Shown here piece by piece: positions 4,379-19,164 of a stretch of DNA of 32,929 bases; position 1 is the stretch's first letter, and each line of letters opens with the position of its first letter. Location of the stretch: NCBI GenBank assembly GCA_029240595.1, contig JARDZZ010000007.1, forward strand, positions 1 through 32,929, written 5' to 3'. The notes under the pieces were generated by a model. It worked only from the letters and a program-made list of their open reading frames with translations, was not told where the DNA came from and ran no database searches. This DNA comes from Nitrospira sp. GTDB taxonomy: Bacteria > Nitrospirota > Nitrospiria > Nitrospirales > Nitrospiraceae. Both the position numbers and the translations under genes were made by a program.

Positions 4379-4481
4379 GGGGGTTGGGCGGGTGAAAAAA
4401 GAACGCGGGGTCCCGGGCGGGTGAAGAACGTACGCGCAGTTGGAGACCGAACCAGCCCCCGCCCCGGAGAGAGTATGAGCG

Positions 4482-4505
4482 AGCTTGGAAGGACTGATCC
4501 AAGCT
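4482..4505. repeat. Inverted repeat AGCTTGGA-N8-TCCAAGCT
   Basis: Perfect 8-bp arms read directly. Confidence 0.6.
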
Positions 4506-4607
4506 GCTTGGTTCAAACGGAAAGCGACCGGAGCAATTATAGGTGTTCGCTTCGGACACCAGTGCTGTCAGAGACAATCAGGCCCCAACGCTAAAGAAGG
4601 GGGACGA

Positions 4608-5264
4608 TTATCGAGGTGGTTTGTGTAACAAGACATTCCGCCGGAAGAACACATACACGGTGGAGAGCACGACGGCGCCAAGCAACGTGTTGCGGATGCG
4701 TCCGGGTCCGAAACAGGTCAGGTTCACCATTCCGTTCGTGAAGCCGTACGCGGCATAGACGAGGTACAGAAAGAAGGCCCACCGCCTGCACCGGATAAAG
4801 CCGTATCCCACTGCCAGGTGCAAGACGGGGGAGATGGCTTTCGTCAGGAAGCCGGGAATGCCCGTCGGCTTGGTGCAATAAAAGGGAAGCAGGTATTCCA
4901 GGTTCGCCAGAATGATGAAGGTGTCGTTCAGCGCACTAATCACCAGGAGCACGCCGAGAAAGCGGATATCGTGCCCGCGCCGCCAAGCGGTACGAAAGGT
5001 TCGTCTCCAAGTGGAGCCGGTTTCAGGCGGGCCGAGATAGGCATCGTAGCCTTGAAGTGCCCACCAGGGGAGGGCCAGCACCATGAAGAAGAACACTTCC
5101 GCCGCACGGCCGGATACCCGACCGAGCGCCAAGCTGGCGATGATGAGTGCAAGGGTCAGAAGGCCGGCCGAAAGGGCGTGAATGTAACGTCGCTGCAGCA
5201 CCTGGCCCATGCCCGGGACCAGAATTGAAAGCACCGCGGCGCGTAGGTCCCGAGATTCAGACAT
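4608..5264 (-). CDS. Multi-pass membrane protein (hypothetical)
   Basis: Several hydrophobic segments; N-terminal LSILVPGMGQ resembles the PGxGQ motif of small membrane-protein families. Confidence 0.75.
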   Translation of the reverse strand: MSESRDLRAAVLSILVPGMGQVLQRRYIHALSAGLLTLALIIASLALGRVSGRAAEVFFFMVLALPWWALQGYDAYLGPPETGSTWRRTFRTAWRRGHDIRFLGVLLVISALNDTFIILANLEYLLPFYCTKPTGIPGFLTKAISPVLHLAVGYGFIRCRRWAFFLYLVYAAYGFTNGMVNLTCFGPGRIRNTLLGAVVLSTVYVFFRRNVLLHKPPR

Positions 5265-16471: not shown

Positions 16472-17155
16472 ATGAAACAGACGGAATGGGATCTTCCTGC
16501 GTTGATCGATCACACGATCCTGCGGCCGGAAGCGACGAGAGCCGATGTCCTGCGTCTCTGCCGGGAAGCAAAGGAGCAGGGCTTTCGAGTGATTTTTATT
16601 CCCCCCTGCTATGCGGCCGAAGCGGTCGCGGCCGTTTCGGGCTCCCCGGTCCGTGTGGGCATTCCCATTGGATTTCCGCTGGGCGGACACACCACCGGTA
16701 CGAAGGTCGCCGAAGCCCTGGAAGGAGTGCGGCAGGGCGCATCCGTGTTGGACATGGTGCTCAATGTCAGTCGATTGAAATCCGGCGATCATGATGCCGT
16801 CCGGCAAGACATTGCCGAGGTCGTGCTGGCGACTCCCCAGGCTGAGCACAAGGTCATTCTTGAAACGTGCTATCTCAGCGATCAAGAGAAAATGACGGCA
16901 TGCCGACTGGCGGTGGAAGCCGGCGCCGACTATGTGAAGACCTCGACGGGATTTGGCGCGAGCGGGGCGACCGTGTCCGACGTCAAACTGATGGTTGCGG
17001 CCGTGCAGGGCAAGGCCAAAGTCAAGGCATCCGGTGGCATTCGCGATTGGAACATGACCCGGCAGCTCCTGGAAGCCGGAGCCGACCGCATCGGCACGAG
17101 CGCGAGCCTGGCCATTCTCGATGAATGGTCGGCAGCACGGGCGATCAGGTCATGA
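16472..17155 (+). CDS. deoC: Deoxyribose-phosphate aldolase
   Basis: LIDHTILRPEAT, YVKTSTGF Schiff-base lysine motif, VKASGGIRD; start MKQTEW at 16472 (ATG at 16400 also possible). Confidence 0.94.
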   Translation: MKQTEWDLPALIDHTILRPEATRADVLRLCREAKEQGFRVIFIPPCYAAEAVAAVSGSPVRVGIPIGFPLGGHTTGTKVAEALEGVRQGASVLDMVLNVSRLKSGDHDAVRQDIAEVVLATPQAEHKVILETCYLSDQEKMTACRLAVEAGADYVKTSTGFGASGATVSDVKLMVAAVQGKAKVKASGGIRDWNMTRQLLEAGADRIGTSASLAILDEWSAARAIRS

Positions 17156-17158
17156 GTC

Positions 17159-17413
17159 ATGGCCTTGCATAGGGATGTCCGCTATCAGGTCCAATGTCCC
17201 GTGGCCTTCGTGGTGGACGGGAAACCGGGGCAGGGCACGACGTTCAACCTTTCGCGCGGCGGCTGTGCCATTGATTCAGACCTGTATGCGGCCATTGACG
17301 ATCCGATTAGCCTGCATATCACGGTTTCATCCCAGCCGACGCCGATCGCCATCGAGCTTGGCAAGGTCCGCTGGGCCATTAACCTCCTGATGCGATCATT
17401 CCCGCCGCGCTAG
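17159..17413 (+). CDS. Short PilZ-like domain protein
   Basis: RDVRYQVQCPVAF...TTFNLSRGGCAIDSD...GKVRWAI; RxxxR and N/DxSxGG motifs. Confidence 0.7.
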   Translation: MALHRDVRYQVQCPVAFVVDGKPGQGTTFNLSRGGCAIDSDLYAAIDDPISLHITVSSQPTPIAIELGKVRWAINLLMRSFPPR

Positions 17414-17489: not shown

Positions 17490-18647
17490 ATGATCAAACG
17501 CGTGATTCTACTTGTGGTCGAGGGCCTGGGCGTCGGAGCCACGGACGATGCGTCCACGTATGGCGATACCTCCTGCCATACGCTGGCACACCTGGCCGAG
17601 AGCGCGGGCGGACTCAGTCTGCCGACGCTCGAATCGCTCGGGCTTGGCCACGTGACCACCATTCAAGGCGTCCGATCGATGGCGCAACCGGTCGGGTGTT
17701 TCGGCCGTCTGGGATTCAAAAGCAAGGGAGTGGACTCACTGGTCGGCTATTGGGAGATTGCCGGATGTGTTTCCGAGGAAGAGGGCCGAACGTTTCCAAA
17801 CGGGTATTCGACAGCGGCCATCGCAGCCCTGGAAGCGGCACTGGGACACAAGGTCGTGGGTGGACGTGTGGCGTCCGGTGAGGAGGCTCTGAAAGAGTTC
17901 GGCGCACGCCATCTCTCGGACGGAGCGCCGATTGTCTGGACGGACGGCCGGCAAACGTGTCACGTGGCCGCGCATGACAGCGTGTGGAGCGGTGAGGTGT
18001 TGTATCAACGGGTTCGAGAGTCCAGAAAAGCGCTGAGAGACGCCTGGGGCATGCGGCGGCTCGTCGCACATCCGCTCATCGGAGCTGTCGGGGCGCTGCG
18101 ATTCGGACCGGGCCGGAAGGATTACGCCGGTGAGCCGCCGGGCCAGACGATGCTGGATCTCTTGAATCGGGCGAGTCAGATCTTGATCGGAGTCGGGAAG
18201 GTGGGTGATTTGTTCGGCGGCAGGGGATTGACCAGGTCGGTGGTCACCTCCTCCTGGAGTCAGGCCCTGGATGAAGTCAGCGGCATGTTCAATAAAGTGC
18301 CCCGCGGGTTGATCTTTGCCGGACTGGACGTGATCGGTTCGGACGCGGTGAACTCCGCTGCGGCCATTGAGGAGTTCGATCGACGGCTTCCGGCATTCTT
18401 GGATCAATTGCGCCCGGGCGATCTGTTTATCATCACCGGCGACCATGGACGAGATCCAAACAAGCCTCATGCGGTTCCGACCCGCGAGTGGGTACCGCTT
18501 CTCATCACCGGCCCCAAACTCGCCCAGGGGGTGAACTTTGGTCTGAGACCGACAGCCTCTGACCTCGGTCAAACCGTCGTCGAAGCGCTGAAAGGGGAAT
18601 CCTTGACCGTCGGAGAAAGTTTTCTCGACGTGCTGAGGCCGGGATGA
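17490..18647 (+). CDS. Phosphopentomutase-like protein (alkaline phosphatase superfamily), divergent active site
   Basis: GLGVGATDDAS, GYWEIAG, EPPGQTMLDLL, GVGKVGDLFGGRG, FDRRLPAFL, ITGDHGRDP align with DeoB motifs; sits just downstream of deoC. Confidence 0.82.
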   Translation: MIKRVILLVVEGLGVGATDDASTYGDTSCHTLAHLAESAGGLSLPTLESLGLGHVTTIQGVRSMAQPVGCFGRLGFKSKGVDSLVGYWEIAGCVSEEEGRTFPNGYSTAAIAALEAALGHKVVGGRVASGEEALKEFGARHLSDGAPIVWTDGRQTCHVAAHDSVWSGEVLYQRVRESRKALRDAWGMRRLVAHPLIGAVGALRFGPGRKDYAGEPPGQTMLDLLNRASQILIGVGKVGDLFGGRGLTRSVVTSSWSQALDEVSGMFNKVPRGLIFAGLDVIGSDAVNSAAAIEEFDRRLPAFLDQLRPGDLFIITGDHGRDPNKPHAVPTREWVPLLITGPKLAQGVNFGLRPTASDLGQTVVEALKGESLTVGESFLDVLRPG

Positions 18648-18705: not shown

Positions 18706-19164
18706 ATGACGTATGAAGAAAAGCTTACATCCCTGGGATTAGAACTGCCGGAGGCGCCGAAGCCCGTGGCAACCTATGTCCCTGCCGTGCGGACCGGCAA
18801 TTTGTTATTTTTGTCGGGCGTCCTGCCGATGCGAAACGGACAATTGGCATTCACCGGCAAGCTCGGACGTGATTTGACCGTTCCGGAAGGGGTCGAAGCA
18901 GCCAAGGTCGCGATTCTCAATGCTCTTGCCATTGCGAAACAGGAACTGGGAAGTCTCGATCGCATCACGCGCGTCGTGAAAGTGGTCGGTCACGTCGCCT
19001 CGGCTGACGGATTTGCCGAGCAGCCGCAGGTGTTAAACGGCGCCTCCGATCTGCTCGTTGCGATCTTCGGGGACGCAGGACGGCATGCGCGCGTCGCCAC
19101 TGGTGCCGCCGAACTCCCGCGAGGCGCCGCGGTGGAAATCGAAGTCATCTTGGCTGTTTCCTGA
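18706..19164 (+). CDS. RidA family (YjgF/YER057c/UK114) protein
   Basis: [41 protein letters not shown] with the conserved Arg. Confidence 0.92.

Follow-up and report, generated by a model that had tools for sequence, protein, structure and literature searches.

An ortholog of the phosphopentomutase DeoB with an altered active site, probably repurposed, in Nitrospira and its relatives

The window, i.e. the whole 32,929-nucleotide stretch of Nitrospira DNA analysed here, contains a gene for a DeoB-like protein that is followed by a ridA-like gene and preceded by deoC and a short PilZ-domain ORF (Table 1). PF01676 is the sole Pfam match of the 385-amino-acid product. Among the NCBIfam models, the protein scored above the cut-off of the phosphopentomutase family NF003766 (276.9 bits; cut-off 256) and below that of the deoB family TIGR01696 (256 bits; cut-off 341.2), and phmmer aligned its residues 3-383 to the phosphopentomutase (PPM) of Bacillus cereus (E=1e-69). 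The GC content at third codon positions (0.69) is the same as in mltG and deoC, so composition gives no hint of a foreign gene. A preliminary description of the locus had placed the DeoB variant right after deoC, yet the PilZ-domain ORF, 84 residues long, intervenes. As homologs of this ORF keep the same place in several genomes of genera g1, g2, g5, and g9, a link to the DeoB variant is possible; judged from its domain, the ORF product could be a c-di-GMP receptor.

Table 1. Features at the DeoB-variant locus (positions refer to the window, residues to the window protein)
Feature	Position	Strand	Evidence
deoC, deoxyribose-phosphate aldolase, intact by profile	16487..17155	+	TIGR00126, 227.7 bits (cut-off 117.3)
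84-aa PilZ-domain ORF between deoC and the DeoB variant	17159..17413	+	PF07238, 29.7 bits (cut-off 22.5)
DeoB-variant gene, 385 aa	17490..18647	+	ORF and translation; PF01676, NF003766, and TIGR01696 matches; phmmer
E11, at the position of metal-2 ligand D13	17520..17522	+	Alignment
S83, at the position of nucleophile T85	17736..17738	+	Ser in 32/32 close and 5/5 g3 variants
WTDG (150-153) in place of canonical YTSA; D152 at S154	17937..17948	+	W and D invariant in 32 close variants
R190, equivalent of R193 (ribose-5-phosphate contact), kept	18057..18059	+	Arg in every variant and canonical sequence
K237, equivalent of K240, kept	18198..18200	+	31/32 close variants
LDVIGS, site of the six-residue deletion; GHR (H291) gone, no Asp at D286	18324..18341	+	Gap in MAFFT and hhalign alignments
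D318-H319, metal-2 ligands D327-H328, kept	18441..18446	+	Alignment
P330, at the position of metal-1 ligand H339	18477..18479	+	Alignment
ridA-like gene, conserved downstream neighbour	18706..19164	+	PF01042, PF14588; gene order

In what follows, positions shared with canonical DeoB are numbered as in B. cereus PPM, whereas E11, F76, S83, W150, D152, T156, C157, H162, R190, K237, D280, G283, D318, H319, and P330 are residues of the window protein. The comparison comprised 32 close variants (the window protein among them), five variants from genus g3, one each from g6 (L072) and g11 (L056), and 34 canonical DeoB sequences; motifs were read in the 39 altered sequences (38 close ones plus L056), which are a subset of the family members. 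Following the structures of PPM and alkaline phosphatase, we take D286, H291, and H339 to be the ligands of metal 1, and D13, D327, and H328 those of metal 2, next to the nucleophile T85. T85, R193, D286, and S154 contact ribose-5-phosphate (PMC11641776). All 34 canonical sequences have D13, D286, H291, D327, H328, H339, S154, D156, R193, R208, and K240, with position 85 being Thr in 31 and Ser in three of them.

The motifs on which the preliminary description had built its case (VVEGLG, DSLVGYWE, TDGRQT, LDVIGSDAVNSAA, TGDHG, and VPTRE) are all present in the translation, which bears out its overall observation. Its claim that the Asp, His, and His of one metal site are missing agrees with the alignment to B. 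cereus PPM: the metal-1 set is absent from the window protein, where G283 stands at D286, G290-H291-R292 fall within a six-residue deletion, and H339 is replaced by P330. The H291 block is deleted in all 38 close orthologs examined (32/32 close variants, 5/5 from g3, and L072). The position of D286 holds mixed residues across the close variants, a single one having Asp, and that of H339 is Pro (22), Ser (5), Ala (3), or Leu (2) in the 32 close variants and His in none. The nucleophile-side site had been described as conservatively retained, and this holds as well, with E11, S83, and D318-H319 taking the places of D13, T85, and D327-H328 (conservative changes at two of the four positions). Among the 32 close variants, the Asp-to-Glu change is peculiar to the window genome, 29 having Asp at this position and two Gly. 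H328 is kept in all 32; D327 is kept in 29 and replaced by Asn in three.

Alterations in the TSADSV segment, also noted at the outset, do concern S154 (Asp in 32/32 close variants) and D156 (mostly Arg or Gly), yet R208 is lost besides, as no close variant carries Arg there. Most of the sugar pocket is therefore altered, beyond the metal site: of the pentose-phosphate pocket residues S154, D156, R193, R208, and K240, only R193 and K240 are left. An alignment artefact can be ruled out, because phmmer, MAFFT, and hhalign are concordant and the profile-profile alignment by hhalign has its six-residue gap at the same place as MAFFT, and a pattern common to the close relatives reflects neither chance nor sequencing error. 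By these alignments, the nucleophile side is kept, whereas one of the metal sites and the larger part of the sugar pocket are gone.

A protein search found matches to the DeoB variant in 115 of 296 genomes of the phylum, among them 75 genomes of the window's own family (f1), in which the gene is single-copy, with two exceptions: G105 has a remnant, and in G193 the first ~45 codons are repeated just upstream of the full gene (L113:3861-3995), a partial tandem duplication. Variant genomes and the sister genera g4, g7, and g10 have the gene order alaS-ruvX-mltG-deoC-[DeoB variant]-ridA-IPT-ycf48-rsmE-dnaJ in common, some of the compared stretches ending at contig or fetch limits and deoC missing in L045; in the three sister genera, the same slot is occupied by canonical DeoB (L042-L045). 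In the phylogenetic tree, all variants fall into one clade (29 rows; support 100/99) that is nested within a canonical grade. The variant thus descends vertically from the deoB of the family itself, and the change is ancestral to these genera. Gene order and tree argue against a horizontal replacement. A paralog beside an intact deoB is contradicted by the searches for a second DeoB (PF01676 in 17 variant genomes and the protein search across the phylum genomes), in which no canonical DeoB turned up elsewhere in the window genome or in the variant relatives searched. Scans of viral contigs returned no variant and one canonical DeoB, and a single scan of genome contigs gave three matches, all canonical.

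Within the clade, losses appear graded. L072 is devoid of the H291 block and retains H339 and S154; g3 retains H339 and has Asp at position 154; and in g1, g2, g5, and g9, H339 is lost too. A stepwise order of these losses is our reading of the sequences, because the base of the clade is an open fork. A far more divergent DeoB sits at the same locus in g11 (L056:5298-6524, genome G251), with Pro at the nucleophile, Asn at D13, neither H291 nor H339, and a block whose length but not residues are kept. Its branch is very long, and decay may have gone further here, perhaps separately. As a separate observation, the canonical genera carry a gene of ~820 codons between deoC (or mltG) and deoB (L042-L045, e.g. 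L044:1566-4034), which by eye includes a class III cyclase-like stretch (DVRGSTTM...GDAV), has no Pfam match at 1e-5, and is absent from that position in variant genomes.

AlphaFold, run with a five-row alignment, yielded a model with a pLDDT of 75 and a pTM of 0.74 that is weak at the active-site loops (16-28, 77-85, and 320-332); a four-row alignment led to a poor model (pLDDT 59). The best Foldseek matches of the five-row model are PPM structures (TM ~0.7, E ~1e-33). This moderate model suggests that the DeoB fold is retained, and we drew nothing on metals from its low-confidence loops. With DeoB phosphopentomutase (B. cereus PPM, PDB 3M8W), the variant shares homology over its full length (~33% identity), the modelled fold, the genomic slot of the canonical deoB of sister genera, the metal-2 set, R193, and K240, whereas it differs in lacking the metal-1 ligands, in the six-residue GHR deletion, in the altered S154, D156, and R208, and in failing the TIGR01696 cut-off. 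Cofactor-independent phosphoglycerate mutase (iPGM) and its archaeal-type relatives (PF01676) belong to the same Pfam superfamily and appear among the weaker Foldseek matches (e.g. 2zkt and 1o98), yet they match far less well than DeoB and the window assembly has separate iPGM and ApgM-like genes. The ApgM-like PF01676 protein (L003, contig C89 of G000, 1294-2535) is encoded between threonine synthase and aspartokinase and, by its position, might serve as an alternative homoserine kinase instead of as a glycolytic mutase. The iPGM gene (L107, the 5.4-kb contig C218 of G000) lies beside enolase and adjoins an ORF resembling a TRAP-permease/PntB chimera; it is in no other family genome tested, and this contig is possibly a contaminant or misassembled.

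The kept Asp, nucleophile, and Asp-His of the variant also correspond to the one-metal site of arylsulfatases and phosphonate monoester hydrolases. In choline sulfatase, such a set comprises the nucleophile along with Asp14, Asp296, and His297 (PMC5870055), and in an Enterococcus arylsulfatase D20, C61, D311, and H312, the D20N, D311N, and H312A mutants of which are dead; both arylsulfatases and phosphonate monoester hydrolases need one metal (PMC12421950). The variant model resembles arylsulfatase A only distantly (TM ~0.33). As the main alternative to the reading favoured below, the protein might be an active one-metal enzyme with a new substrate, a DeoB that converged on the arylsulfatase/phosphonate monoester hydrolase arrangement, with the nucleophile-side metal held by D/E11, S83, D318, and H319, and with R190, K237, and H162 in place of the second metal. 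Single-metal enzymes of the superfamily use the same kind of set (PMC5870055, PMC12421950), and among the variants S83 and H319 never change and D318 seldom does. Still, we regard this as rather unlikely, since position 13 has become Gly in two relatives and D327 has become Asn in three, i.e. the positions at which D20N and D311N kill the Enterococcus enzyme (PMC12421950), and the formylglycine motif C/S-X-P/A-X-R of these enzymes (PMC12421950) is not found in the variant, which locally reads S-L-V-G-Y (within DSLVGYWE). Equally doubtful is the evolutionary scenario that would go with it, in which a phosphopentomutase took on a new substrate as a one-metal enzyme of the alkaline phosphatase superfamily, arrived independently at the sulfatase-type arrangement, and left living intermediates at one locus, from canonical g4, g7, and g10 through the half-way g6 and g3 to g1, g2, g5, and g9. 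The narrower proposal of the preliminary description, a one-metal variant of phosphopentomutase, is at odds with the replaced S154, D156, and R208, with the same Gly and Asn substitutions in relatives, and with the absence of the purine nucleoside phosphorylase PunA from variant genomes.

PunA is a main source of ribose-1-phosphate. A PunA-type phosphorylase scored above cut-off in G060, G220, G295, and G143, all of which have canonical DeoB (four of the five canonical genomes of the family), and in none of the 75 remaining family genomes, one of which, G239, has canonical DeoB. PF01048 is represented in the window genome by a methylthioadenosine phosphorylase and an HpnG-like protein. A search of 26 family genomes revealed neither pyrimidine phosphorylase (PF07831, PYNP_C) nor PpnP (PF06865). 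The usual nucleoside sources of ribose-1-phosphate are therefore missing in variant genomes. PunA absence tracking the alteration of DeoB is suggestive, though the correlation is confined to a single clade and has canonical exceptions, as G239 and two f6 genomes gave no PunA-type match in spite of their canonical DeoB. These data bear on the reading that the variant is still an ordinary phosphopentomutase in which D280 and D152 replace the lost ligands. A score above the NF003766 equivalog cut-off, Asp at D280 in 30 of 32 close variants, the new conserved carboxylate D152, and the nearby deoC in genomes with no other DeoB would fit, but g3 has Pro at the D280 position, S154, D156, and R208 are gone too, the TIGR01696 cut-off is failed, and the phosphorylases are missing, which makes this reading very improbable. 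Automatic annotation, for which passing NF003766 suffices to name the variant phosphopentomutase, is probably wrong.

Across ten close variant pairs, dN/dS was 0.045-0.143, with neighbour genes in a similar range and a value of 0.081 in one canonical pair. Besides, 62 alignment columns (F76, S83, W150, D152, T156, and C157 among them) are at least 93% conserved in close variants and yet different or less conserved in canonical sequences. That the locus holds a decaying, functionless gene heading for loss is therefore very improbable, for although the variants evolve ~2-3x as fast as canonical DeoB members relative to MltG, and G161 has lost the gene and G105 has only 88 codons of it left, these dN/dS values speak against a pseudogene, reading frames are intact across the family, and many positions are newly conserved. 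Constraint on the DeoB variant has changed, but the gene is not dying. It is nonetheless dispensable in some small genomes, as in G161, where deoC directly adjoins ridA and nothing of the variant is left. Strong purifying selection and new conserved residues also fit the earlier suggestion of a repurposed protein. The link to deoC that had been drawn from their proximity, on the other hand, is weak: deoC is kept almost everywhere, even without the DeoB variant (in G161 and G289, where the variant is absent, and in G105 with its remnant), so deoC does not explain it. No deoC was found in G239 and G091. In L084 (G167), a stop or frame change interrupts the deoC region at 4441-5259, and the adjacent DeoB variant is intact.

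Our literature search, limited in coverage, found no paper on the altered DeoB variant. We consider it probable, at roughly 60%, that the protein, a DeoB ortholog, has been repurposed as a pseudoenzyme or phospho-ligand binder and is no longer a phosphopentomutase. Direct support comes from orthology, the residue losses, the single clade, purifying selection, and the lack of a second DeoB and of PunA; the biochemical role is what we infer throughout. In this scenario, an ancestor of these genera would have lost the metal-1 histidine block from the family's own deoB, and the rest of the metal-1 site and the ribose-phosphate pocket would then have been lost step by step, in a lineage without purine nucleoside phosphorylase. 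Phosphopentomutase chemistry would no longer be performed, and selection would keep the gene for another role. The DeoB fold and a putative phosphate-binding patch (R190, K237, and S83) would be retained, D/E11, D318, and H319 perhaps holding one metal, and the new WTDG loop may bind a different phosphorylated ligand, be it in a pseudoenzyme or in a regulatory or binding protein. Then again, the invariant Ser and the near-invariant Asp and Asp-His set could mean residual catalysis.

If so, the name that NF003766 assigns across most of a bacterial family is very probably wrong, and so would be the nucleoside-salvage predictions built on it. Besides, one locus holds a graded series from an intact enzyme to a gutted active site under continuing purifying selection, which makes it a good test case for the loss of chemistry in a two-metal mutase and its recruitment to another role.
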